A stretch of DNA of 35,844 nucleotides from Actinomycetota bacterium (GTDB taxonomy: Bacteria; Actinomycetota; Acidimicrobiia; Acidimicrobiales; Ilumatobacteraceae): assembly GCA_005787785.1 (NCBI GenBank), contig SXZT01000137.1:1-35844 (forward strand). Direction: 5' to 3'. Below, piece by piece: positions 1,269 through 35,844 of the stretch. Every line of letters starts with the position of its first letter. The first letter of the stretch is position 1. Made by a program: the position numbers and the translations under genes. The notes under the pieces are model-generated. The model was given only the letters and a program-made list of their open reading frames with translations, ran no database searches and was not told the DNA's origin.

Positions 1269-2501
1269 TCAGTCGCCACCGTCGAGATCGGCCAAGGAAA
1301 CACGGACATTCGAAGGCATCGGGGGCAGGCGCAGGGCGAAGAGCCACGTCAAGACCACGAACGCCGTCGCACCCCACATCGCCAGGGCCAGGCCACCCCA
1401 CAGATAGAGGAGTCCCGAGAGCAGCGTGCCGACGAGGCGCCCGGCCGCGTTCGCCGAGTAATAAAAGCCGACGTCGAGGGCGACCTCGTCGTCGTCGGAG
1501 AAGGCAAGGACGAGGAACGAGTGCAGGGACGAGTTCATCGCGAACACGACACCGAAGACGATGAGGCCCGCGACGATGGCGATCTTCACCGCCACGTCGA
1601 ACGCAACGAGGCTCGCAATCGTCGCCGCAACCACGGCGAGGACCAGGGCCCATTCGCGCGCCGAGCGCACTTCGTCGACTGCAGTTTGTCTCAACGTGAG
1701 AATCCTCGGCGCCGACGACTGCACGACGCCGTAACCGATCACCCACAACGCAAGAAACGCGCCGACGGTTCGGTCTGACCAGCCGAGAACGTCAGAGAGA
1801 AAGACGGGCAGGGCAACAACAAACCAGATGTCACGCGACCCGAAGAGAAAGAAACGCGCGACCGACAACCGGTTGATCGCCGTCGACTTCGACAGCACCG
1901 ACCGCAGGGGCGGCTTCTTCTTCGACTTGCCGATGTCCTCGTTCAGGAACACCAGAAGAACAACGACCATCGCGGCGAGCGCGCCGCTCATCAACCACAG
2001 CGCGCCGTCATAGCCGACTCCCGCCAAGAGCGCCGCCCCGAGAAAGAAGCCGACTCCCTTCAGCGCGTTCTTCGAACCGGTGAGAATTGCAACGAGACGG
2101 AACAACGATCCATCGCCCGCGACGGTCTTCACCGCGCTCTTCGAGCTCATCTTCGTGAGGTCCTTTGCGACTCCGGAAAGTGCCTGCATCGCCATCACGA
2201 AGGCAACCGACAGCCAGCGTTCCCATGAACTCGATTCGGCCGACAGGGCCATCAACGCCACGATCTGGAGTACGAGCCCGGCGACGAGTGTGCGGTTGAG
2301 GCCACGCCGGGAACCAACCCACCCGCCCAGCAGGTTCGTGAGTATGCCCATGAACTCGTAGGCGAGAAACAGGAAAGCGATCGCCACGGCCGAGTATCCG
2401 AGGTCGTTGAAGTGCAACAACACGAGCATGCGCAGTGCACCGTCGGTCAGCGTGAAGGTCCAGTACCCCGCGGTGACGAGGGCGTAGTTACGCAACTTCA
2501 C
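1269..2501 (-). CDS. arsJ: Organoarsenical efflux MFS transporter ArsJ
   Basis: This is a major facilitator protein of 410 residues with about 12 hydrophobic segments. Its N-terminus ([20 protein letters not shown]) and the downstream LHFNDLGYS and [14 protein letters not shown] stretches match the ArsJ family. ArsJ exports 1-arseno-3-phosphoglycerate, which breaks down outside the cell and releases arsenate. The assignment is reinforced by the gene directly upstream, a GAPDH, which is the standard ArsJ partner. I chose the GTG at 2501 because it overlaps the GAPDH stop codon (GTGA), which implies translational coupling; the open frame extends 23 codons further upstream without need. The gene is third in the arsRC-gapdh-arsJ operon. 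Confidence 0.88.
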
Positions 2502-3508
2502 AGCGAGGCGCCGACTTTCATGGCCAGTTCGGCCATGCGATGGGCGTAGCCGAACTCGTTGTCGTACCACACGAGAACCTTCACCATCCGTCCGTCGATG
2601 ACCATCGTCGAGGGTCCGTCGACGATTCCCGATCGTGGGTCGTTTACGAAGTCCGCCGAGACGAGCGGGCGAGATTCGTAGCCGAGAATTCCACGCAGTT
2701 CGCCGTTCGATGCAGCTTCGAGGAGGCTGTTCACTTCGTCGACGGTCACGTCACGATTCATCGTGAATACACAGTCGGTGAGCGAGGCGTTGAGCAGCGG
2801 AACGCGTACTGCGACACCATTGAGTTTCCCCTTCAGTTCGGGGTAGATCATCGTGATGGCAGTGGCGGACCCCGTCGACGTGGGGACGAGAGAGTTCAGT
2901 GCCGAGCGTGCGCGTCGGAGGTCTTTGTGCGGGGCGTCGACGATCACCTGAGTGTTCGTCACATCGTGCACCGTGGTGATGGCTCCCCGCTCGATGCCGA
3001 TCTTCTCGTGCAGCACCTTCACGACCGGGGCGAGACAATTGGTGGTGCACGATGCTGCGGTGACGATGCGGTGGATCGCGGGGTCGTACAGATGGTCGTT
3101 GCAACCCATCACGATGTTGAGAACGCCTTCGCTCTTCACAGGGCATGCAACGACAACCTTCTCGGCCCCATTGACGAGATGCGGTTCGATATCGGCCGAA
3201 GTCTTGAACTTTCCCGACGACTCAATGACGACGTCGACACCGATGTCACCCCACGGAATGTCAGCCGGCTTGGTGTGCTCGCTGAAACCGATGCTTCGAC
3301 CGTCGACGATGAGCACGTTGCCCGAAGTTGCGACCGATCCCCTGTAACGGCCGTGCACAGTGTCGAATTCGAGAAGGTGGGCGGCCGCCTCGACTCCACC
3401 CTTCACCTCGTTCACGTGCACAACTTCTGTCCCCAACCGGTGCTGCAACGCCCGCATCGTCAACCGTCCGATGCGACCAAAGCCGTTGATTCCGATTCGC
3501 ACGGTCAT
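2498..3508 (-). CDS. ArsJ-associated glyceraldehyde-3-phosphate dehydrogenase
   Basis: This is a full-length GAPDH of 336 residues. It has the NAD-binding GFGRIGR motif (9-15), the catalytic cysteine in ASCTTNC (Cys154) and the histidine in [10 protein letters not shown] (His181). C-terminal [12 protein letters not shown] is also standard. In ars operons this paralogue uses arsenate in place of phosphate and makes 1-arseno-3-phosphoglycerate, which ArsJ exports. It overlaps arsRC upstream by 4 bases (ATGA) and arsJ downstream by 4 bases, so the three genes are probably co-translated. The glycolytic GAPDH is expected elsewhere with pgk and tpi; none of those is near here. The arsenic role rests on context, the enzyme class on sequence. 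Confidence 0.9.
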
Positions 3509-18192: not shown

Positions 18193-19044
18193 TCAGTTTC
18201 TGTCGAGCACCTCGATGAGTGCCACCGGCACATCGGTCGGCTCCGCCACCGTTGCAATGCGGGCACCCACGTTCGAGGCGAGCGCACGGGCCTCGACATC
18301 ATCACCCTCCGGAGCGACGATGCACAACTCGTCAATGGCACGGGCCGCGGCTTCGACGTCACCCGTTTCCGTCGCACGGCAGTCCGACAACAAAACCACC
18401 ACCTTGCGCGCAGCGCGCGACCTTGACAATTGCTCCGCCGCCGCCCTCAACGCCCCGGCAAGGTCCGTCGTACCGAATCCACGCAGCGTGAGCACCGAAT
18501 TGACAACATCGGCCCCCGGCCGGCGCACGTCCTGTGACTTGGCGACGATGACGTCGCGACCGAAGGCGAGCACGCTGTAGTCGTCGGGTTCGCGCAGCGC
18601 CACCGCCGCGGCCGCAAGTGCCGAAGTGGCAAGCGGCTTGCCGCCCATTGAACCACTGCGATCGACGACGAGACAGAGTGCCGTGTCACGCTTTGACCAG
18701 GTGCGTGCGCGGAGTTCCTCGGCTCTCACCCGACGATGCGGCCCGCTTCCCTCGAAGGCTTCGACACTCGCGTCGATATCGATGTCACCTTCACCACGGA
18801 AGGGTTGCGTGACCAGCCGGCCGATACCTCGCCGTTGTCGTTTCGTTGCTCCCGCGAGATCCAGCATCAACCGTCCCGCTATCAGCTTTGCCGCATCGCG
18901 CAGTTTCGGGTCGGTGGCAGCAGTCAGATCGGCGATCATCGACAGCGTGTCGTCGGGGTTGTCGCGCATCGCCTCATCGATCGCCGTCTCGTCGAGTTCG
19001 CCCACCTCCGGCGACACCTGCTCGAAGTTCGGATGACGCGACAA
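18193..19044 (-). CDS. VWA domain protein, partner of the upstream MoxR ATPase
   Basis: The 283-residue protein has a helical N-terminal region (VSPEVGELDETAIDEAM) and a C-terminal von Willebrand A domain with the metal-site motif DRSGSMGG (D128, S130, S132). VWA proteins of this kind pair with MoxR-type AAA+ ATPases to load metals or cofactors into enzymes, as CoxD/CoxE do for CO dehydrogenase. The partner ATPase is 68 bases upstream. The only start codon that keeps the conserved N-terminus is a TTG at 19044. The frame stays open for about 34 more sense codons upstream, to a TGA inside the ATPase gene, but contains no ATG, GTG or TTG. GTG codons at 19017 and 19005 are alternatives. Confidence 0.8.
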   Translation of the reverse strand: MSRHPNFEQVSPEVGELDETAIDEAMRDNPDDTLSMIADLTAATDPKLRDAAKLIAGRLMLDLAGATKRQRRGIGRLVTQPFRGEGDIDIDASVEAFEGSGPHRRVRAEELRARTWSKRDTALCLVVDRSGSMGGKPLATSALAAAAVALREPDDYSVLAFGRDVIVAKSQDVRRPGADVVNSVLTLRGFGTTDLAGALRAAAEQLSRSRAARKVVVLLSDCRATETGDVEAAARAIDELCIVAPEGDDVEARALASNVGARIATVAEPTDVPVALIEVLDRN

Positions 19045-19112
19045 CTCGGTTCGCGATTTCGTGCGCCGCCCCGCTTCTTTCTCGGCGGTTTCGGCGGCCG
19101 TACCTTCCTTGA

Positions 19113-20024
19113 TCAGCGGGAGTTCGTGGCCCCGGTCGGGGCTCCACCTTTTCCCGGATCACCCGATCCCGCTTCTGGCGCAAAAACGGAGTCCCAAATC
19201 TCGAGGATGACGTCTTCGGTCGTCCGAGACACCCCCTCACGCAAACGAACTCGCCCGCTGAGGGCCGTGAGAGCCGCATCACGTGCGACACCCGGAGTGG
19301 TTGGTGCCTGGCCGCGCAGCGCACCAAGGGTCTGCGCGACGAGGGCCGTGTCGATCGCACCGCGCACCGACGCACCCGTGCGCAAATCGGAATGGTCACG
19401 TGTCGCACGCACGACGCGAACCACGCCTTCGACCCACGCGGCATCGAGTCCGTCGACGTGACGCGCCACGATCGCCACTTCGTCGTCGAGCGACTGGTAT
19501 CCGACGGCAACCCGACAGACGCGGTCGTAGATCGCGCCGGAGATTCGCGCCGTGCCAACCGAGTCGAACGGATTCATCGCGGCGACCAGTCGGAATCCCG
19601 GCGCAGCCGCGATGCGTCCGAGCCGCGGAACACTGAGATCCCCCTCACTCATCACGGTGATGAGAACGTTGAGGGTTTCCTCGGGCACGCGGTTGATCTC
19701 CTCCACGTAGAGCAGCGACCCCTCGCGCATCGCCGAGACGAGTGGCCCATCCATGAAGGCATCGGCGACGTATCCCTCGTTCAGCACCCGCGCCGGGTCG
19801 AAGGCTCCGACCAGGCGCGCCGGTGTCAACTCTGCATTGCCCTCGACGAATTCGAAACCGACGCCGAGCACGCCGGCCACGGCACGCAGCAACGTCGACT
19901 TTCCGGTGCCCGGTGGACCCTCGAGCACGATGTGTCGATCGGCGTCGAGGGCCGCAACAACTATTTCCAGCTCGCGGGTACGCCCGACGACGTCGCGCCC
20001 GAGTCGCTCGAGTGCGTCAGTCAT
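19113..20024 (-). CDS. MoxR-type AAA+ ATPase
   Basis: This 303-residue AAA+ protein has Walker A GPPGTGKS (36-43), Walker B in LLYVEEINRVPEE, sensor 1 in RLVAAMNPFDS and a YDRV segment equivalent to the MoxR FDR motif. MoxR ATPases act with VWA proteins as chaperones that insert cofactors or metals into oxidoreductases. Its ATG overlaps the end of the second alcohol dehydrogenase gene by 8 bases (ATGACTGA), so translation is probably coupled. That order suggests the client is one of the two upstream dehydrogenases, but this is inference. The open frame extends 9 codons upstream of the chosen ATG. Confidence 0.87.
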   Translation of the reverse strand: MTDALERLGRDVVGRTRELEIVVAALDADRHIVLEGPPGTGKSTLLRAVAGVLGVGFEFVEGNAELTPARLVGAFDPARVLNEGYVADAFMDGPLVSAMREGSLLYVEEINRVPEETLNVLITVMSEGDLSVPRLGRIAAAPGFRLVAAMNPFDSVGTARISGAIYDRVCRVAVGYQSLDDEVAIVARHVDGLDAAWVEGVVRVVRATRDHSDLRTGASVRGAIDTALVAQTLGALRGQAPTTPGVARDAALTALSGRVRLREGVSRTTEDVILEIWDSVFAPEAGSGDPGKGGAPTGATNSR

Positions 20025-21168
20025 TGACGATGACGCCGCGGATGTTCTCACCGTCTCGCATCGCGCGATAGCCCTCGTTGATCTGCGAAAGCTTGTAGCG
20101 CTTCGTGATGAGTTCGTCGAGCTTCAACTGGCCGTCGCGGTACATGCCGAGCAGTCTCGGGATGTCGGCACGAGGATTCAGGCTGCCGAAGATCGTGCCC
20201 TTCACTTCCTTGTTGAACATCGCAAGGTTGAACAGGTTGATGCTCGCAGTGCCACTGGTCATCGGCGAGATGGCGGTGACGACCATCGTGCCGCCCTTGC
20301 CGGTCAGGTTCTGGGCCATTTCCATCATCTCGCCGTGCAGAACACCCGGCGTCATGATCACGCGATCGGCCATCTGGCCCCACGTCATCTCCATGACGGG
20401 CGCCATCGCCTCTTCCATCGAGGAGAACGTGTGCGTGGCCCCCATCTCCATCGCCTTCTCGCGCTTGAACTCGACGGGGTCGACTGCGATGACGCGCTTC
20501 GCGCCGGCCATCTTCGCGCCCTGCACCGCGTTGATACCGATGCCACCAATACCGACGACCACCACCGTGTCACCGGGCTGCACGTCGGCGCGGTTCGTCG
20601 CCGAACCCCACCCCGTGGCGACGCCACACGACACCAGTGCGACCGACTCGAGAGGCAGATCGGGATCGACCTTGATCACCGACGCTTCGGCGACGCAAGC
20701 AACCTCGGAGAACGTGCCGACCTTGGCCATCATGCCAACCGGTGTTCCGTTCGAAAGGAAGTGACGGTGCGTTCCATCGGTGATCATGCCCGGGATCATC
20801 GCGCCGGCGCCGAGATCGCAGAGGTTCTGTCGACCGGTGCTGCAGTAGCGGCAACGGCCGCACGACGGAATGAACGACGCAGACACGTGGTCGCCCTTCT
20901 TCACCGAGGTCACGCCGGGTCCGACGTCGAGGATCACTCCCGCACCTTCGTGGCCGCCGACCATCGGGAACATCGACTCGAGGCCCATCATGTCGAGCAG
21001 TTCCTGTGGCGGCACCATGTCGCCGGTGACGAGGTGCTCGTCACTGTGGCACAGGCCCGCGACCTTCCAATTCACCAGAACCTCGCCCGCCTTCGGTGCG
21101 TGGACCTCGACGTCGTCGACGCTCCAGTCCTGGTGGAGCCCGTGGATGACTGCTGCCTTCGTCTTCAT
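20017..21168 (-). CDS. NDMA-dependent (mycofactocin-associated) zinc alcohol dehydrogenase, copy 2
   Basis: This 383-residue medium-chain dehydrogenase has the catalytic zinc motif GLCHSDEHLVTGD, then GGHEGAGV, the structural zinc cluster CGRCRYCSTGRQNLC, and the NAD fold VVVVGIGGIGINAVQGAK. These blocks match the NDMA-dependent alcohol dehydrogenases, which keep NAD(H) tightly bound and are recycled by mycofactocin rather than by free NAD. Compared with copy 1 it carries an extra loop (PPQELLDMMGLESMF) before GGHEGAG. ATG 21168 has GGGGGAAA just upstream. It lies 36 bases after copy 1 and overlaps the MoxR gene by 8 bases. The alcohol it uses is unknown. Confidence 0.88.
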   Translation of the reverse strand: MKTKAAVIHGLHQDWSVDDVEVHAPKAGEVLVNWKVAGLCHSDEHLVTGDMVPPQELLDMMGLESMFPMVGGHEGAGVILDVGPGVTSVKKGDHVSASFIPSCGRCRYCSTGRQNLCDLGAGAMIPGMITDGTHRHFLSNGTPVGMMAKVGTFSEVACVAEASVIKVDPDLPLESVALVSCGVATGWGSATNRADVQPGDTVVVVGIGGIGINAVQGAKMAGAKRVIAVDPVEFKREKAMEMGATHTFSSMEEAMAPVMEMTWGQMADRVIMTPGVLHGEMMEMAQNLTGKGGTMVVTAISPMTSGTASINLFNLAMFNKEVKGTIFGSLNPRADIPRLLGMYRDGQLKLDELITKRYKLSQINEGYRAMRDGENIRGVIVND

Positions 21169-21204: not shown

Positions 21205-22317
21205 TCAGTTGTAGACGAGCACGCCGCGAATGTTCTTGCCGCTGCGCATGTCGTCGTATCCGTCGTTCACACCGTCGAGTGAATAGGTCTTCGTCACCAG
21301 GCCATCGAGGTCGAGTTGTCCCTCGCGGTAGAGGCCCAGCAACTTCGGAATGTCAGCACGCGGATTGCCCGACCCGAAGAGCGAACCGACGACCTGCTTT
21401 TCCATCAATGTGAGGTCAAGCAGACTCATGTTCGCGCTGAATTCCATCGCCGGGTGGATGTTGGTGACGACCACTCGGCCACGCTTGGCGGTCAGGGCGA
21501 GTGCCTCACCGATCACCGCTCCGCTGCCGACGCCCATCGTCATGATGACCTTGTTCGCCATCGTTCCCCAGGTGATGTCGCGCACGAGATCGGCCGCTTC
21601 GGTCATCGACGCGGCGGTGTGCGTCGCGCCGAACTGCATGGCCTTTTCCCGCTTGAACTCGACAGGATCGATGGCGATGACGCGCTTGGCGCCCGCCAAC
21701 TTCGCGCCCTGCACTGCGTTCGCACCGATGCCACCGATGCCGACGACGCACACGGTGTCCCCCGGTTGGACGTCGGCCGCATAGACGCTGCTTCCCCAGC
21801 CGGTCACGACACCGCAACCGAGCAGACACGCCTTGTCGAGCGGCACATCCTTTTCGATCTTGATGCAGGATGCTTCGTTGACGACCGTGTGGTGCGCGAA
21901 CGTGCCGAGCAGGCACATGATGCCGACGTCCTGGCCTTGGTAATGATGGCGTGCTGTTTGGTCGGCGATCTGACGGCCGGTGCCGAGATAGGCGCCGAGG
22001 TCGCAGAGGTTGGAGTGGCCGGTGCTGCAACTCGGGCAACGACCGCACGATGGAATGAAGCCGAAGACGACGTGGTCGCCGGGCGCGAGCCAACTGACAC
22101 CCTCGCCGACCTGTTCGACGACACCCGCGCCTTCGTGGCCGCCGATGATCGGAAGCGCGAACGGCAGGTCGCCGGTGACGAGATGCTCGTCACTGTGGCA
22201 CATGCCCGAGGCGGACATCTTCACCAACACCTCACCCGGGCCGGGCGGATCGAGGTCGATTTCCTCGACCGACCATGGCTTGTTCAGTTCCCACAGGATT
22301 GCGGCTTTTGTCTTCAC
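21205..22317 (-). CDS. NDMA-dependent (mycofactocin-associated) zinc alcohol dehydrogenase, copy 1
   Basis: This 370-residue paralogue of the next gene has SGMCHSDEHLVTGD for catalytic zinc, CGRCPSCSTGHSNLC for structural zinc and VVGIGGIGANAVQGAKLAG for NAD. The shared stretch RVIAIDPVEFKREKAM and the C-terminus DMRSGKNIRGVLVYN are characteristic of the NDMA-dependent family. I chose the GTG at 22317 because GAGGGGG stands about 5 bases before it; the open frame upstream is shadow. It is the first gene of the minus-strand operon and diverges from mftA across 95 bases, the usual neighbourhood of mycofactocin-dependent enzymes. It should oxidise a primary or secondary alcohol to the carbonyl. 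Confidence 0.9.
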   Translation of the reverse strand: MKTKAAILWELNKPWSVEEIDLDPPGPGEVLVKMSASGMCHSDEHLVTGDLPFALPIIGGHEGAGVVEQVGEGVSWLAPGDHVVFGFIPSCGRCPSCSTGHSNLCDLGAYLGTGRQIADQTARHHYQGQDVGIMCLLGTFAHHTVVNEASCIKIEKDVPLDKACLLGCGVVTGWGSSVYAADVQPGDTVCVVGIGGIGANAVQGAKLAGAKRVIAIDPVEFKREKAMQFGATHTAASMTEAADLVRDITWGTMANKVIMTMGVGSGAVIGEALALTAKRGRVVVTNIHPAMEFSANMSLLDLTLMEKQVVGSLFGSGNPRADIPKLLGLYREGQLDLDGLVTKTYSLDGVNDGYDDMRSGKNIRGVLVYN

Positions 22318-22399: not shown

Positions 22400-22405
22400 T
22401 ACGCT
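22400..22405 (+). promoter_or_regulatory. -10 element (TACGCT) of mftA, leaderless
   Basis: TACGCT ends 7 bases before the mftA ATG and matches the exporter promoter at 4272 exactly. No ribosome-binding site precedes the ATG. Confidence 0.55.
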
Positions 22406-22412
22406 TGCCCGC

Positions 22413-22553
22413 ATGACACCGGCACCGAACTCCGCCGTCCTCGAGGCCTCCGAGACCCGTCCCGTCGAGAACGGCGTCGCAACCGAGTCGGTCGTTCTCG
22501 AAGAACTGCTCGTCGAGGAGATTTCCATCGACGGCATGTGCGGCGTCTACTGA
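22413..22553 (+). CDS. mftA: Mycofactocin precursor peptide MftA
   Basis: This is a 46-residue peptide with an acidic leader (VVLEELLVEE) and the invariant C-terminus ISIDGMCGVY. The terminal Val-Tyr pair is the part that becomes the cofactor: MftC, with MftB holding the leader, decarboxylates the tyrosine and cross-links it to the valine; a peptidase then releases the product, which is oxidised and glycosylated. The C-terminal motif is essentially diagnostic. The ATG is fixed by the leader length and by a -10 box 7 bases upstream. mftB follows after 28 bases. The frame remains open further upstream, but that part reads as non-coding. Confidence 0.96.
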   Translation: MTPAPNSAVLEASETRPVENGVATESVVLEELLVEEISIDGMCGVY

Positions 22554-22581
22554 GCCGACTGCCGCTACGACACGCCGCGCG

Positions 22582-22848
22582 ATGCCTCTGACACTCGAGT
22601 CCTCGGCAAGCCTGTCGCCGCAGGTGGCGCTTCGCCCCGAGCCCTTCGGCGCTCTCGCCTATCACTACGGCAACCGGCGTCTCGTCTTCCTGAAGCATCC
22701 CGACGTCGTTGCCGTCGTGAAGAGCCTGGGACAACATCCCACTGTCGGAGCAACTCTCGACGCTTGCGGCATCGCAGCAGAACGCCGCGCCTCGTTTCTC
22801 GCCGCGCTCAACAACCTGACGAAATCCGAGATCATCCATGTCGGCTGA
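22582..22848 (+). CDS. mftB: Mycofactocin chaperone MftB
   Basis: An 88-residue PqqD-like (RRE-fold) protein that binds the MftA leader and presents it to MftC. It matches in size, place and sequence: RPEPFGALAYHYGNRRLVFLK at the start of the fold is typical of MftB, and the tail ends in LNNLTKSEIIHVG. It begins 28 bases after mftA and overlaps mftC by 11 bases, so translation of mftB and mftC is probably coupled. No ribosome-binding site is obvious, which is common in this operon. Confidence 0.93.
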   Translation: MPLTLESSASLSPQVALRPEPFGALAYHYGNRRLVFLKHPDVVAVVKSLGQHPTVGATLDACGIAAERRASFLAALNNLTKSEIIHVG

Positions 22849-23959
22849 TTCGCTCGTCTCGCAACTGAAGCGCGGTCTCGATGCGCCGATATGCCTCACG
22901 TGGGAACTCACCTACGCCTGCAACCTGCAGTGCATCCACTGCCTGTCGAGCAGCGGCCAGCGCGACCCGCGGGAACTGACAACTGCCCAGGCCAAGGCGG
23001 TCATCGACGAACTCCGCGACCTTCAGGTCTTCTACATCAACATCGGCGGTGGCGAGCCGATGATCCGCCGTGATTTCTTCGACATCGTCAGCCACTCCGT
23101 CGACAACTCGATCGGTGTCAAGTTCTCGACGAACGGTGCGTACATCGACGCCGACAACGCGCGGCGACTCGCAGCGATGGACTACCTCGACATCCAGATC
23201 AGCCTCGACGGAACAGATGCCACGACAAACGACGCCGTTCGGGGCAACGGGTCGTTCGACACCGCAATCGTCGCCATGGACAATCTTGCTCGTGCAAAAT
23301 TCGGTCCGTTCAAGATCTCGGTTGTCGTCACGCGCCACAACGTCGCGCAGCTCGACGAATTCAAGGCCCTCGCCGACTCGTACGGTGCACAACTGCGCAT
23401 CACGCGCCTGCGGCCGGCCGGACGCGGAGCCGACACATGGCACCAACTCCACCCGACGGCCGAGCAGCAGGTCGACATCTACCGCTGGCTCGTGCGACAC
23501 GGCGAAAATGTCCTCACGGGTGACTCCTTCTTCCACCTGAACGCCCTTGGCGAACCCCTGCCCGGCCTCAACTTGTGCGGTGCCGGACGCGTCGTGTGTC
23601 TCATCGATCCGCTCGGTGATGTCTATGCGTGTCCGTTCGTCCTGCACGACGAATTCCGCGCGGGTAGCGTCCTCGATCCTGGTGGCTTCACCAAGGTGTG
23701 GCGCGAGAGCGCGCTCTTCATTTCCCTGCGCGAACCCGAATCAGCCGGCGCATGCGCATCGTGCGGCAGTTACGACGCCTGCCAAGGTGGCTGCATGGCG
23801 GCGAAGTTCTTCACGGGCCTACCCCTCGACGGACCCGACCCCGAGTGCGTGAGCGGCCACGGTGAAGAATTGCTGAGGGCAAGCGCGGCAAACGCGCCGC
23901 GACCGACGAGCAATCACTCGCGACCGGTCTCCCTGACGCACAAACCGATCCGCGCCTGA
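22838..23959 (+). CDS. mftC: Mycofactocin radical SAM maturase MftC
   Basis: A 373-residue radical SAM/SPASM enzyme. The SAM cluster motif CxxxCxxC is CNLQCIHC (C28, C32, C35), followed by INIGGGEPMIR; the SPASM region has LCGAGRVVCLIDPLGDVYACPF and CASCGSYDACQGGC for two auxiliary clusters. It uses S-adenosylmethionine to decarboxylate the MftA C-terminal tyrosine and then forms a carbon-carbon bond to the preceding valine. It overlaps mftB by 11 bases. In most genomes mftD and mftE come next; here the following gene is plsY, with its own promoter 36 bases downstream. Confidence 0.95.
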   Translation: MSADSLVSQLKRGLDAPICLTWELTYACNLQCIHCLSSSGQRDPRELTTAQAKAVIDELRDLQVFYINIGGGEPMIRRDFFDIVSHSVDNSIGVKFSTNGAYIDADNARRLAAMDYLDIQISLDGTDATTNDAVRGNGSFDTAIVAMDNLARAKFGPFKISVVVTRHNVAQLDEFKALADSYGAQLRITRLRPAGRGADTWHQLHPTAEQQVDIYRWLVRHGENVLTGDSFFHLNALGEPLPGLNLCGAGRVVCLIDPLGDVYACPFVLHDEFRAGSVLDPGGFTKVWRESALFISLREPESAGACASCGSYDACQGGCMAAKFFTGLPLDGPDPECVSGHGEELLRASAANAPRPTSNHSRPVSLTHKPIRA

Positions 23960-23995
23960 TCGGTCGATGATCACGGGCCCCAATGGGCGTCCTTC

Positions 23996-24001
23996 TAAAC
24001 T
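23996..24001 (+). promoter_or_regulatory. -10 element (TAAACT) of plsY, leaderless
   Basis: TAAACT ends 6 bases before the GTG start of plsY, in the 48-base gap after mftC. It suggests that plsY starts its own transcript instead of relying on the mft operon. Confidence 0.5.
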
Positions 24002-24007
24002 GAAGCG

Positions 24008-24604
24008 GTGCACTACGCGTTCGTTGCCATCGTCGCCATGGTCGGCTACGTGCTCGGTACCTTTCCCAGTGCGATCATCGTCGCGAAAGCCAACGGAATC
24101 GACATCATGACGCAGGGTTCGGGCAACCCCGGGGCATCGAACGTCGCGCGAACCCTCGGATGGAAGAGGGGCGCTTTCGTTTACGTACTCGACGCCCTGA
24201 AAGGCGTCGCGGCCGCGGTCGTCGGTCGACTCGTCGCTGGCGACGCGGGTGGCTACTGGTGCGCGGCAGCCGCAATTGTCGGTCACATCTTCCCCGTGAC
24301 CCGTGGCTTTCGTGGCGGAAAGGGGGTCGCCACGGGAAGTGGTGCGATCACCGTGCTGCAACCCGTTCTCGGCGCCGTTCTCATCGTGATCTGGATGGCA
24401 GTCGGCAAGACGACGAAGAAGGCATCGATTGCATCCATCGTCGTGACGGTTGCCGTACCGATCGGCACGGCAATCATCGGCGTACCCGCATGGGAACTCC
24501 TCGCCATGACCGGTCTTGCCTGCCTCGTCGCTGCGCGGCATCTTCCCAACTTGCGCCGACTGCGCTCGGGTACCGAAGCCTCTCTCGACGGACGGGCGGC
24601 CTGA
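24008..24604 (+). CDS. plsY: Acyl-phosphate:glycerol-3-phosphate acyltransferase PlsY
   Basis: This 198-residue membrane enzyme acylates glycerol-3-phosphate with acyl-phosphate, the first step of phospholipid synthesis. The three PlsY signatures are present: LGTFPSAIIVAK with GSGNPGASNVAR, the aspartate region YVLDALKGVAA, and GHIFPVTRGFRGGKGVAT. Length and hydrophobicity (about five helices) are normal, with a slightly basic tail (HLPNLRRLRSGTE). The GTG start is fixed by the -10 box. It sits between mftC and mftF, which is not the usual place, and is followed after 4 bases by a DedA protein; both act in the membrane. Confidence 0.9.
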   Translation: MHYAFVAIVAMVGYVLGTFPSAIIVAKANGIDIMTQGSGNPGASNVARTLGWKRGAFVYVLDALKGVAAAVVGRLVAGDAGGYWCAAAAIVGHIFPVTRGFRGGKGVATGSGAITVLQPVLGAVLIVIWMAVGKTTKKASIASIVVTVAVPIGTAIIGVPAWELLAMTGLACLVAARHLPNLRRLRSGTEASLDGRAA

Positions 24605-24608
24605 CATC

Positions 24609-25217
24609 GTGGCCGCGGCACTCGCAACCGTCTTCGACAGCCTGCGTGACCTGTCGGATTCGCCGGTCTTCTACCTCGTCATCCTGGTCATCGCCGTGTT
24701 CGACTCGGTGTTCCCGGTCGTGCCCAGCGAAACCATGGTCATCATCGGTGGTGTCGCGGCAGGCCTCGGCGACCTGAACATCGCCGTCGTCATTGCCCTC
24801 GGTGCCGCAGGAGCCTTCATCGGCGACAACATGTCCTTCGAGATCGGCCTGCGCGCAAAGGTGCCCGTCACTCGTTGGTACTCGCGCAGCGAGAAACGTG
24901 CCAAGCGACTCGTGTGGGCCGACGAACAAATCGAAGAACGCGGCGGACTGCTTCTCATCACCGCGAGGTTCATCCCAGGTGGACGCACGCTTCTGACGCT
25001 GTCGTGTGGCATCACCGGCCAACCCCATCGCTGGTTCGCAAAATGGGTTGCGGCGGCGGCAATCATCTGGGCTTCGTACGCGGCGCTGCTCGGATATGTC
25101 GGCGGCAAGACCTTCGAGGACAACCACACTCTCGCATTCGTCGTCGCCTTCACCACGGCGGTCTCGATCACGGTTCTCATCGAGGTCGTGCGCTACTTCC
25201 GCAAACGCCGCGCCTGA
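24609..25217 (+). CDS. DedA family membrane protein
   Basis: This 202-residue membrane protein belongs to the DedA/VTT family. It has the N-terminal half-helix motif AVFDSVFPVVPSETMVI, a conserved GAFIGDNMSFEIG, and the arginine motif TARFIPGGRTLLTLSCGITG, followed by two C-terminal helices and a basic end. DedA proteins are involved in membrane lipid homeostasis, and some flip undecaprenyl phosphate or phosphatidylethanolamine. It starts with GTG 4 bases after the plsY stop, so the two are co-transcribed. mftF follows after 28 bases. Confidence 0.85.
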   Translation: MAAALATVFDSLRDLSDSPVFYLVILVIAVFDSVFPVVPSETMVIIGGVAAGLGDLNIAVVIALGAAGAFIGDNMSFEIGLRAKVPVTRWYSRSEKRAKRLVWADEQIEERGGLLLITARFIPGGRTLLTLSCGITGQPHRWFAKWVAAAAIIWASYAALLGYVGGKTFEDNHTLAFVVAFTTAVSITVLIEVVRYFRKRRA

Positions 25218-25245
25218 TCGGTCGGTGGCGGCGGCAGAATGCGCC

Positions 25246-26637
25246 ATGCGCTTCAGCATTGACCGCACGTGGCGACGGCCCAACGATGGTGACGTGGTCA
25301 TCGGTGGTTCGCCCACGCGCGCATTTCGCCTGACCACCGGCGGGTGTCGCATCGCCGAGATGATCGAGCGCGGTGAAAACCTCCCCCCGACGACCCACGC
25401 GCTCGTCGACCGACTCGTGGATGCAGGTGCCATCCACCCCCTCGCCGATCCGTCGGAGCACTCGATCGCCCCGACGCACATCACGGCCGTGATTCCCGTT
25501 CATCTCACGGAGACGGCCAATGGCACCGCGCTGGCATCCCTCGTTGCCGGCCTCGCCGGCCTCGCCGGCATTGTTGTCGTCGATGACGCATCGCCGCGAC
25601 CGTTGCCCGCATTGTCGGCGGGCGGCACATCGGTGACAATCATCCCCCGCGAATCGAACGGCGGGCCCGCGGCGGCACGCAACGCCGGCCTGGCAACGGT
25701 GGAGACGAGCCACGTCGTCTTCATCGACGCCGACGTCGAGTGTCGCGCCAGCGACGTCGTGGCACTTGCCGCATGGCTCGTCGCCGCCGATGCGGCCGCA
25801 ATCGGACCTCGGGTTCGCACCAGTGATGATCGCACGGTTCTCGGCGCCTACGAAGCGGCACGTTCGCCGCTCGACATGGGTGAACGTCCCGCACGCGTCC
25901 GGGCCGCCACCCGTGTCGGATGGTTGCCCGCTGCGCTGCTGCTGTGCGACGTGGCCGCACTGCGTTCGGTGAACGGGTTCGACGAGACAATGCGCACGGG
26001 TGAAGATGTCGACCTCGTGTGGCGCCTCGATGCAGCAGGGTTCCGCTGCCGCTACGAGCCATCGATCGAAGTGCTCCACGAACGACGGTCGACGCTCGAC
26101 GCTCTGGTACGGCAGCGCATCGGGTACGGCGAGTCCACCACCGCATTGCACCGCCGCCACGGCGACAAGGTCGCACCGGCCCGCGGATCGTGGTCGTCGG
26201 TGTCGTCCTGGACCGCGCTCGTGCTCGGTCTGCCAATCGTTGCGTGTGGCGCCGCCATCGCAACCGCCGCGATGCTGTCGCGCAAGCTCCGCTTCGCACC
26301 AAACACCGCATCCGAGTCGGTACGTCTCGCATGGATGACCCACCTGCAGGTCGGTCGCAACCTTGCTTCGGCCGTCACGCGAGTGTGGTGGCCGGTCGCA
26401 ATAGTCGCGTCGGTCTTCTCACGTCGCGCGCGTGTCGCGCTGTGTACCGCCGCAGTCGTTCCCGCGCTCGCCGAGTGGTGGGGAAAGCGACCGCGCCTCG
26501 ACCCCGTGCGCTTCACGATTCTTCGCATCATCGACGACGCCGCATACGGCACCGGAGTGTGGAAGACAGCCGTTCGTGAACGCAACGCCGGCGCGCTACT
26601 GCCTGCAATCGCACGCCCCACGACTCCCGACGGCTGA
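25246..26637 (+). CDS. mftF: Mycofactocin glycosyltransferase MftF
   Basis: This 463-residue protein has an N-terminal PqqD/RRE-like region (TTGGCRIAEMIERGENLPP), then a GT2 glycosyltransferase fold with TAVIPVHL, VVVDDAS, SNGGPAAARNAG and the DxD motif FIDADVEC, the GFDETMRTGEDVDLVWRL acceptor loop, and C-terminal hydrophobic segments. MftF adds beta-1,4-linked glucose units to the mycofactocin aglycone. A short tandem 9-base repeat (CTCGCCGGC) encodes LAGLAG at 25552-25569. The ATG has no ribosome-binding site; CAGAAT lies 5 bases before it. It is separated from mftC by plsY and dedA, whereas mftD and mftE normally stand between C and F. Confidence 0.92.
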   Translation: MRFSIDRTWRRPNDGDVVIGGSPTRAFRLTTGGCRIAEMIERGENLPPTTHALVDRLVDAGAIHPLADPSEHSIAPTHITAVIPVHLTETANGTALASLVAGLAGLAGIVVVDDASPRPLPALSAGGTSVTIIPRESNGGPAAARNAGLATVETSHVVFIDADVECRASDVVALAAWLVAADAAAIGPRVRTSDDRTVLGAYEAARSPLDMGERPARVRAATRVGWLPAALLLCDVAALRSVNGFDETMRTGEDVDLVWRLDAAGFRCRYEPSIEVLHERRSTLDALVRQRIGYGESTTALHRRHGDKVAPARGSWSSVSSWTALVLGLPIVACGAAIATAAMLSRKLRFAPNTASESVRLAWMTHLQVGRNLASAVTRVWWPVAIVASVFSRRARVALCTAAVVPALAEWWGKRPRLDPVRFTILRIIDDAAYGTGVWKTAVRERNAGALLPAIARPTTPDG

Positions 26638-33866: not shown

Positions 33867-35081
33867 TCAGGAAAGTTCGCCGAGAAGCGCCTCGCTGACC
33901 CACGCACGTTCGAGGTGCAAGGTCGACCTGATTCGCACGACCCGCTTGGGTTCGTCGACGGATTTGCCACACATCATCAGCGCTGCCCGGATGCACTCGT
34001 CTTCGTCGGCGAGCACCATCGGCATGCGGGACCGACGGACACCCGACGGGCCTGCCGTGAAGCAGTTGAGATAGGTCTTTTCCCAGTCGATCACGTTGGC
34101 CACGGACACGGGAATGAAATCGGCGAGACCAACGCCGAGAACATTGCCGCCCGATGCCTCGGTGATGCCGAGGAGCACGATCGTCGCGGGCGCGCCGTCG
34201 AAGTCGGCCAGACCGTGCACCCAGAAACGACCGGTCACGTTCGGGTCCATCATCGTTCCGCTGATGTCCTTGCCGCCGCGTTCGATGACGAGAACATCGA
34301 TGTCGCGAAGCGGCAACCGCGGAACGAGATTGCGTGCGTAATCGGTGAGCTCACGCTCGGCCGCACCGCCGACGTCGTTCGCGCCGAACGCCGCAACCTT
34401 GACGACCTCACCCGAGCACGACTCGACCGTCGCAACACCACCGAGCAGTCGGCCCGTCGACCGCAATGCCCCGATGCCATCGAGGAGCCGTTGCGCCATG
34501 CGGTCGGGCCCGCACGCGTGAATCTGCGCGGCGCCCGGCTGTTTTCCGAATCCAACGACGGTCATCTTCGTGCAGCCGCTTTCGATCGGCCCCTTGAAAC
34601 ACGTGTGCGGCTTCACCCGGTTCACGGGCAGAATGAAATCGGCAGCCGCAGCATGTTCGTCGAGGTAGAGAGGCATTCCCTCGGTGGTGCGCGCAACTTC
34701 GACCGTCTTCATCGACGATCGGATCTCGCAGTCAATCGATCGCTCGTCGATGCCGAGTGCGGCGAGCAGTTCACGTTGACCATCGGCCGTGGCGCCCGCA
34801 TGACTTCCCATCGCGGGAACTACGAACGGCACAGCGCCACACGCACGCAGCCCCGCGACGACCCCGCGCAACGTCTCGACACGTCCGGTGAGCCCCCGAC
34901 TACCCGCACCAACGGCGACTGAGCGGTCGGTGAGGCCGCGCTGCGAGAAAGCCTCGTGCACCCTTGCCATCACCTCGGCTTCGATGTCAACGACCGCGGC
35001 CGGGCGCGGCACGGGCAACGTCACCTCGTGCAGTCCGGGAATCTCGACCGTCGATGGAATCGGCAGACGCACGCCTCTCAT
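33867..35081 (-). CDS. LarA-like nickel-pincer racemase/epimerase (DUF2088)
   Basis: This 404-residue protein carries the LarA N-terminal domain in divergent form. GSHAGATADG holds His94, NRVKPHTCFKGP holds His159, ESGCTKMTVVG holds Lys172 and AAQIHACG holds His188. Their spacing (65, 13 and 16 residues) closely follows lactate racemase His108, His174, Lys184 and His200, where the lysine binds the pincer nucleotide and the last histidine binds nickel. The C-terminal half (LPRLPLRDIDVLVIERGGKDI) is also of the DUF2088 type. It may racemise or epimerise a 2-hydroxy acid. I start at ATG 35081; the frame extends 50 codons upstream as non-coding. larB, larC and larE are not in the window. Confidence 0.72.
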   Translation of the reverse strand: MRGVRLPIPSTVEIPGLHEVTLPVPRPAAVVDIEAEVMARVHEAFSQRGLTDRSVAVGAGSRGLTGRVETLRGVVAGLRACGAVPFVVPAMGSHAGATADGQRELLAALGIDERSIDCEIRSSMKTVEVARTTEGMPLYLDEHAAAADFILPVNRVKPHTCFKGPIESGCTKMTVVGFGKQPGAAQIHACGPDRMAQRLLDGIGALRSTGRLLGGVATVESCSGEVVKVAAFGANDVGGAAERELTDYARNLVPRLPLRDIDVLVIERGGKDISGTMMDPNVTGRFWVHGLADFDGAPATIVLLGITEASGGNVLGVGLADFIPVSVANVIDWEKTYLNCFTAGPSGVRRSRMPMVLADEDECIRAALMMCGKSVDEPKRVVRIRSTLHLERAWVSEALLGELS

Positions 35082-35150
35082 CAACTGACCCCAGTTCCCG
35101 GTCCCCGACACGATTTCAACGGTACCGCTGGTACGCAAGTCACCGTGGAC

Positions 35151-35156
35151 TAGCGT
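35151..35156 (+). promoter_or_regulatory. Probable -10 element (TAGCGT) of the binding-protein gene
   Basis: TAGCGT lies 47 bases before the ATG at 35204, leaving a leader of about 40 bases with an AAAGGAG ribosome-binding site. The same hexamer occurs before the LCP gene and the alcohol dehydrogenase operon. Confidence 0.4.
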
Positions 35157-35203
35157 CGGGAGGAATAAATCACCCACAACCAACCACGAATAAAGGAGCA
35201 AGA

Positions 35204-35844
35204 ATGCGTCGAATCTCGCGCATTGCCGCACCCGTTCTGGCCCTCGGACTCATCCTTGCGGCCTGCGGAGACGACAGCAGTTCATCCACTGACGAAACCA
35301 CCGCGGCTGCGGAGGAAACGGCCACCGCCGACACCACCGCCGCAGCCACCGAAGACACCGCCGCTGCCGAAGAAGGTGCCGTCGACGTCGCCAGCCTCGG
35401 CCTCATCGCGGACGGCAAGTTGACCGTCTGCACCGACGCGCCCTACCCGCCGTTCGAGTTCCAGGACGAGACCACCAAGGAGTGGACCGGCTTCGACATG
35501 GACGTCGTGCGTGAAATCGCCGCAGGCATCGGTTCGGGCCTCGAACTTGCCGTCACGGTCCAGCCCTTCGACGGCATCTGGCTTGCCCCCAAGGCCGGCA
35601 CCTGCGACATGGTTGCTTCGGCAATGACGATCACCGACGAGCGCAAGGCGAACGCCCTGTTCACCGACGGCTACTTCGATGCCGACCAGTCGCTGCTCGT
35701 TCGCGCCGAGGACAAGGATGCGCTGACTTCGCTCGAGGCACTCGCCGGCAAGACCATCGCGGTGCAGACCGGCACCACCGGCGAGAGCTACGCACAAGAG
35801 AATGCCAAGGACTCGACGCTGAAGTCGTTCGACGAATCAGCCGC
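35204..35844 (+). CDS. Amino-acid ABC transporter substrate-binding lipoprotein, 3' end beyond the window
   Basis: The first 213 codons are present. A lipoprotein signal (MRRISRIAAPVLALGLILAAC) places the lipidated cysteine at residue 21. A Thr/Ala/Glu-rich linker of about 40 residues follows, then a family 3 solute-binding domain: LTVCTDAPYPPFEF, EWTGFDMDVVREIA, MTITDERKANALFTDGYFDADQSLLV and LAGKTIAVQTGTTGESYA. Such proteins capture polar amino acids or similar small solutes for an ABC importer, whose permease and ATPase probably follow to the right. The start is secured by AAAGGAG 6 bases upstream of the ATG. Confidence 0.9.
   Translation, partial: MRRISRIAAPVLALGLILAACGDDSSSSTDETTAAAEETATADTTAAATEDTAAAEEGAVDVASLGLIADGKLTVCTDAPYPPFEFQDETTKEWTGFDMDVVREIAAGIGSGLELAVTVQPFDGIWLAPKAGTCDMVASAMTITDERKANALFTDGYFDADQSLLVRAEDKDALTSLEALAGKTIAVQTGTTGESYAQENAKDSTLKSFDESA

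Follow-up and report, generated by a model that had tools for sequence, protein, structure and literature searches.

The window examined here, contig SXZT01000137.1 of an Actinomycetota bacterium (Ilumatobacteraceae; assembly GCA_005787785.1) over its full 35,844 nucleotides, probably holds a trimmed but working mycofactocin locus of the Ilumatobacteraceae type, in which mftA, mftB, mftC and mftF are encoded together, the flavoenzyme MftD is encoded at an unlinked site, the peptidase MftE is absent, plsY and dedA are old neighbours, and a redox module present in relatives has been lost. Beyond the window, we lean slightly towards a wider proposal, in which premycofactocin would be made by either of two interchangeable and unrelated synthases: MftD, or an anaerobe-compatible route in which an Old Yellow Enzyme (OYE) homologue, OYE2 (FMN/4Fe-4S, often accompanied by OYE1), passes electrons through EtfAB and FixCX to quinone, perhaps also doing the job of MftG. 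Lineages would switch between the two by loss of the module and lateral gain of mftD, and the genus of the window would have been caught at one such switch, in sister subclades, after an ancestral loss of MftE. The source assembly is a metagenome-assembled genome (MAG) of 1.87 Mb in 162 contigs and 77.9% complete, labelled G000, in which the window is contig C133; the closest relatives of its MftC come from Ilumatobacteraceae and other actinobacterial MAGs, many apparently lake-derived.

The locus was identified as one for mycofactocin biosynthesis by a MftA with a C-terminal GVY core (IDGMCGVY) and by MftB, MftC and MftF matches that each exceed the cut-off of the respective hidden Markov model (HMM). 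Two N,N-dimethyl-4-nitrosoaniline (NDMA)-dependent alcohol dehydrogenases are encoded on the minus strand, a mycofactocin-associated one at 20017..21168 (TIGR03989, 548.5 bits, cut-off 440) and a second at 21205..22317 (570.8 bits, same model and cut-off), divergent from mftA. On the plus strand follow mftA (22413..22553; TIGR03969, 47.2 bits, cut-off 25; PF23709), encoding a 46-amino-acid precursor peptide with the C-terminus EEISIDGMCGVY, mftB, encoding the peptide chaperone (22582..22848; TIGR03967, 97.9 bits, cut-off 33), mftC, encoding the radical SAM maturase (22838..23959; TIGR03962, 613 bits, cut-off 265), a plsY-like glycerol-3-phosphate acyltransferase gene (24008..24604; PF02660, 147.8 bits, cut-off 24.1; TIGR00023, 136.9 bits against a cut-off of 137.2), dedA, encoding a DedA/VTT membrane protein (24609..25217; PF09335, 64.5 bits, cut-off 33.9), and the glycosyltransferase gene mftF (about 25225..26637; TIGR03965, 349.8 bits, cut-off 280), with an alanine-racemase-like gene beyond it. 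By the gene calls, dedA and mftF are separated by a plus-strand gap of 7 nucleotides (25218..25224), the site of mftE in relatives with the same locus type. The order mftA-B-C, plsY, dedA, mftF over 22413-26637, with the coordinates and names given in an earlier note on this DNA, was thus confirmed by HMM. The note's statement that mftD and mftE are missing from the window also held, as neither was found among the scanned window open reading frames (ORFs) or, by genome search, in contig C133; mftR and mftG likewise had no match among the scanned window ORFs.

A search of the whole MAG, which the earlier note had proposed, found a full-length MftD at G000:C108:2010-3161 (686 bits, cut-off 470.85), unlinked to the mft locus, and for MftE only a creatininase paralogue below the cut-off. 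Of the two options that the note had offered, that the missing enzymes are encoded elsewhere or that other enzymes do their steps, the first therefore applies to MftD, and the second is more likely for MftE, which is above cut-off in 0 of the 13 genomes of the genus. The note had also named a second mft operon as a possible site of the missing genes; mftD is indeed present in the genome, but not in such an operon. The genes flanking mftD are common to G000, G002, G010 and G011, and Pfam calls near it include a SnoaL-like protein, an MBOAT acyltransferase, an AMP-binding enzyme, a carrier protein and a TauD dioxygenase. In G010 (L156, 5792 and 6315) mftD is broken into two frames, possibly by assembly error or decay.

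These four genomes form subclade A of the genus, which has mftD and no module. Its sister, subclade B, defined as the genus members with the module (5 of 9 of which entered the six-gene tree), has the module and no mftD. In a tree of six locus genes the two subclades form one clade (100/100); an MftC-only tree, in which 15 of 85 inner branches were starred and the genus was split, was dropped in favour of it. The locus of subclade B and of many family members reads mftC-OYE1-plsY-OYE2-dedA-etfA-fixC-fixX-etfB-(mftE)-mftF, or a variant of that order. OYE1 matches TIGR03996 (642 bits, cut-off 628), OYE2 of the sister subclade (L038:9969-11945) matches TIGR03997 (941.5 bits, cut-off 793), and the module etfA matches mft_etfA (NF038209; 354, cut-off 240); the module etfB falls below the cut-off of mft_etfB (TIGR04503; 179.7 bits, cut-off 200). 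The module also encodes a FixC-like flavoprotein, which matches the EtfABCX complex 7koe, and a FixX-like ferredoxin.

The distribution of MftD and the module was examined in two sets of genomes, a genome being counted as having MftD if it held a match above cut-off or a partial match of MftD type, and as having the module if it held mft_etfA above cut-off, a partial match in the mft contig, or module genes in the mft locus. In the first set, MftC was above cut-off in 39 of 61 relatives, which divided into 13 with MftD (partial in G010) and 26 with the module, none with both and none with neither; 20 of the latter were assigned by mft_etfA above cut-off, G001, G005, G007, G008 and G035 by partial matches or locus genes, and G006 by OYE1 alone. 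The second set was drawn from the 50 top-ranking relative loci, once those recognised as part of the first set had been removed, and comprised the 50 genomes that hold them, or 49 without a duplicate (G097 = G034). Here 15 have MftD (partial in G094 and G096), 28 have the module, none has both, and six (G073, G088, G092, G095, G107 and G110) have neither. Pooling resulted in 88 Acidimicrobiia, with 28 holding MftD only, 54 the module only, 6 neither and 0 both (Fisher p 1.8e-17, a value that ignores kinship). The same pattern recurred on plasmids, among 12 records with MftC at E 1e-60: MftD was present in four at 63-73% identity (best 40 of 263 records) and OYE2 in eight (seven at E 1e-100, Halolamina by profile), the two together in 0 of 12, counting MftD among the matches listed. 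All seven plasmid records with OYE2 at E 1e-100 carry mftC. The loci of 11 of these plasmids were examined, that of S. lavendulae, which is unannotated, being left out. Five Streptomyces plasmid loci have the module directly after mftC, then mftE and in most cases mftF, and many of the genes overlap or abut; two haloarchaeal loci have a single OYE, which by profile is of the OYE2 type, so that OYE2, not OYE1, is the common part. VWA and AAA genes stand beside these two haloarchaeal loci (L218 and L219), with weak similarity to the VWA/MoxR genes of the window. In the Mycolicibacterium chubuense plasmid locus (L212), mftD is separated from an inverted mftF by two integrases and an IS21 transposase, and mftE had no match on the plasmid.

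The MftD/module state needs 4 or more changes on the locus tree, where 4 of 4 independent pairs are opposite, which at p 0.125 falls short of 0.05; on the MftC tree there are at least 7 state changes and 4 pairs on starred branches, with b differing in at most 1, too few for 0.05. Two observations weigh against so tidy an exclusion: six of the 28 module genomes of the second set (G068, G070, G072, G080, G081 and G084, the 4.7-Mb genomes G070 and G072 being sisters) carry OYE1 yet lack an mft_etfA match at E 1e-50, and G015 has mft_etfA above cut-off (G015:C253:3142-4071) in a genome without MftC above cut-off, perhaps an incomplete assembly. A limit on the reading of the window's locus is that every genome of the genus is a fragmented MAG, 76-96% complete.

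The trees also bear on the direction of change. In the MftD tree subclade A joins the G036/L079 group (95/91), with G057, of another family, falling inside, and the grouping expected from the locus tree is rejected (p-AU 0.018, for a group picked after the tree was seen); from this placement and rejection, mftD has probably moved sideways. Subclade B, G033 and G013 all have the module genes interleaved in the identical way with plsY and dedA. This suggests that the module order is old and that several lineages have lost module blocks, and that the locus in the window is the remainder after such a loss, with the unlinked mftD taking over.

Since none of the 54 module-bearing genomes has MftD, something else must make premycofactocin there, and the similarity of OYE2 to amine dehydrogenases makes it the candidate. 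Both OYE1 and OYE2 are similar to 2,4-dienoyl-CoA reductase, histamine dehydrogenase and trimethylamine dehydrogenase (TMADH), and the alignment of OYE2 with histamine dehydrogenase 3k30 (E 2e-62) spans its full length. In the third domain, the reductase 1ps9, aligned with OYE1, has the NADPH-binding glycine motif GCGGIG; OYE2 reads IDEIGFHHATS there, and the motif is likewise missing from 3k30 and 1djq. By these alignments and by conservation in 13 OYE2 sequences, OYE2 lacks the NADPH-binding motif, as would suit an amine dehydrogenase coupled to an electron transfer flavoprotein (ETF). Neither TMADH nor histamine dehydrogenase is known to use NADPH, and TMADH passes its electrons to an ETF. 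The cysteine that binds FMN covalently in TMADH is not evident in OYE2. A predicted structure of OYE2, made from five close sequences, was set aside at a mean pLDDT (predicted local distance difference test score) of 41.7. The module could alternatively serve only to reoxidise mycofactocinol, as an analogue of MftG unrelated to the MftD step: a path from ETF through FixC to quinone would fit re-oxidation, mftG is not annotated in module loci, and in both plasmid loci where mftG is annotated (NBC_00080 and Tsukamurella) mftD is present and the module absent. About 25% of genomes with MftC are reported to lack MftG, and its replacement is left open in the relevant part of that report (PMC11778925). 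The absence of MftD from all 54 module genomes and the full-length alignment with histamine dehydrogenase nevertheless make a role confined to re-oxidation unlikely.

MftE presents a separate case. The best creatininase in the window's genome scores 138 bits against the MftE cut-off of 172 (TIGR03964); of the 13 genus genomes, 10 hold only such a lower-scoring homologue and 3 have none at E 0.01. By comparison, MftE is above cut-off in 45 of the 50 genomes reached through relative loci (44 of 49 without the duplicate), the misses being G077, G080, G081, G084 and, as a partial match, G105. The difference between genus and relatives gives a Fisher p of about 1e-9, from counts that ignore kinship, and multiplying the 13 incompleteness values gives 2e-11. 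On the locus tree, which unites the genus in one clade, mftE requires a single change, which suggests that MftE, absent from all 13 genomes examined, was lost once, in the common ancestor of the genus. The MftA C-terminus EEISIDGMCGVY is identical in both subclades in the sister genomes compared, so the same bond presumably still must be cut. In M. smegmatis, deletion of mftE lowers mycofactocin without abolishing it and glycyl-AHDP (GAHDP; AHDP, 3-amino-5-[(p-hydroxyphenyl)methyl]-4,4-dimethyl-2-pyrrolidinone) accumulates, from which the authors of that study infer an unknown peptidase (PMC7491314). TIGR03966 and TIGR03964, for MftD and MftE, were already described in 2011 as not universal (Haft; PMC3023750).

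The creatininase paralogue at G000:C161:10570-11346 (139.7 bits against 172) does not group with MftE. The genus proteins form a clade of their own with counterparts from MftE-bearing genomes (support 100), to which they are 66-72% identical, as against at most 41% to MftE, and their neighbours (an ABC transporter, an amidohydrolase and a luciferase-like monooxygenase) are the same in genomes that also have MftE. The separate clade and shared neighbours rule out a relocated MftE. Whether this protein has instead taken over the MftE step is a different matter, which we regard as doubtful: it belongs to the same family, its creatininase motifs EQHGPHLP, NGHGGN and HGGTDET are intact, and it is the sole creatininase homologue (E 0.01) in 10 of the 13 genus genomes, but it is an old syntenic gene present also where MftE exists, it was not found in the other three genus genomes, and the conserved AS-EH-GF-G motif of MftE reads TKSNEHAW-PG in it. 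A heliorhodopsin gene (PF18761, 310 bits; L007 3937-4683) lies a few genes away on contig C161. That mftE, or any other missing part, is present and was merely dropped in assembly is very improbable; the incompleteness of the window's MAG and its 162 contigs would allow it, but MftE is missing from all 13 genomes, in each of the four subclade A genomes the assembly covers mftF and the genes around it, with dedA immediately preceding mftF and leaving no space for mftE, and in subclade B etfB stands directly before mftF. A possible second natural case without MftE is the Thermomicrobium roseum plasmid locus (L213), with mftA-B-C-F, mftD near by, and no mftE match on the plasmid at E 1e-20 (plasmid only).

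The earlier note had described the locus as rearranged, with plsY and dedA standing where mftD and mftE are expected, and this description did not survive the comparison with related Acidimicrobiia that it proposed. Among 80 relative loci, collected by the similarity of their MftC and annotated with profiles made for this analysis, the order mftC-plsY proved to be the usual one in the family: plsY occurs in 65 (52 directly after mftC and 13 after OYE1), dedA-mftE-mftF in 19, plsY-mftE in 10, and mftD in none. The arrangement dedA-mftF without mftE occurs in only three (L074-L076), which are sisters of the window. Of the 33 loci that reach mftF, 28 have mftE, and the five without it (L074, L075, L076, L097 and L099) are all of the window's genus. 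With plsY in 65 loci, mftD in none and dedA-mftE-mftF in 19, plsY and dedA are old neighbours rather than replacements; judging by gene order, nothing appears to have moved into the locus, from which mftE dropped out and where mftD was never seen in this slot in the family. A functional replacement of MftD and MftE by plsY and dedA, as members of the mycofactocin system, can be dismissed as highly implausible, for although plsY has long been kept near mftC, the two genes coexist with mftE in those 19 loci and with the unlinked mftD, plasmid mft loci gave no plsY or dedA model match, and to our knowledge neither acyltransferase nor VTT membrane folds have amine oxidase or peptidase chemistry.

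A sequence of events consistent with these data would begin with loss of the module in the window's lineage. MftC would make the crosslinked Val-Tyr core, a general cellular peptidase would free AHDP in place of MftE, and the unlinked MftD would oxidise AHDP to premycofactocin, which MftF would glycosylate for use by the two adjacent NDMA-type dehydrogenases. In organisms with the module, OYE2 would deaminate AHDP and deliver the electrons to EtfAB, and from there through FixCX to quinone.

Promoter-like boxes were read upstream of two genes. TANNNT is a box for leaderless transcripts. The sequence TACGCT lies 7 nucleotides before mftA (22400..22405, plus strand) and is kept as TACG[CA]T in the subclade A and B sequences compared. 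TAAACT, which resembles it, lies 6 nucleotides before the GTG of plsY (23996..24001, plus strand) and is retained in all four subclade A genomes (as CTAGGAT in G011); it was not evident among the other plsY upstream regions compared, having been seen in the window's subclade only. The promoter of its own that the earlier note assigned to plsY at 23996 is therefore plausible from the position of the box, its likeness to that of mftA and its conservation in the subclade, but a sigma-70 scan did not report it. Elsewhere in the window, weak VWA-domain-like and MoxR-type AAA ATPase genes (18193-20024) adjoin the NDMA dehydrogenases, as in mft loci of the family. An ArsJ organoarsenical efflux transporter (544.6 bits, cut-off 400) stands beside an ORF called by eye, from its N-terminus, as glyceraldehyde-3-phosphate-dehydrogenase-like (1269-3508), which we take to be the known arsenate export pair, and a nickel-pincer cofactor-dependent isomerase of group 22 (NF052515, 408.3 bits, cut-off 400) is encoded at 33867-35231.

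Taken alone, the window is a modest variant, with an unlinked mftD, a lost mftE and inherited neighbours. The mutual exclusion seen in Acidimicrobiia and on the plasmids of Streptomyces and haloarchaea, in turn, names OYE2 as a candidate enzyme together with an electron path, so that a single purified protein would allow both mftD-less synthesis and the role of the OYE/ETF family to be tested. In lacking MftE, the genus parallels in nature the mftE mutant of M. smegmatis, suggesting that the core may be released without a dedicated peptidase.

The claim of two alternative premycofactocin synthases is partly foreshadowed in print. In the literature searched, mycofactocin was not paired with Acidimicrobi-, Ilumatobacter or electron transfer flavoprotein, and it was absent among the matches listed for FixC, FadH, Etf and electron bifurcation. 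The module genes belong to TIGR03996/TIGR03997, NF038209 and TIGR04503, families whose names say "associated" or "system" and state no function. With histamine and trimethylamine dehydrogenases (3k30, 1djn), set against 2,4-dienoyl-CoA reductase (1ps9), OYE2 shares the full-length fit to 3k30 and the absence of GCGGIG; its coupling to ETF, unlike theirs, is predicted from gene order. Closest to subclade B are 17 Saccharopolyspora clusters in which mftD is missing and TIGR03997, the FadH/OYE oxidoreductase 2, is present (BGCFlow, 2024; PMC11162802), and S. erythraea makes methylated mycofactocin according to work cited there. The passages of that paper on these clusters treat the case as an annotation problem, with no exclusion test or mention of ETF/FixCX, and the window's genome, by contrast, is of the mftD kind. 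With the mftA-F locus of Mycobacterium and Tsukamurella (L211) the window shares mftA-B-C and mftF orthologues, the core IDGMCGVY and nearby mycofactocin-type dehydrogenases, and it differs in having mftD unlinked, mftE absent, and plsY and dedA inside the locus.

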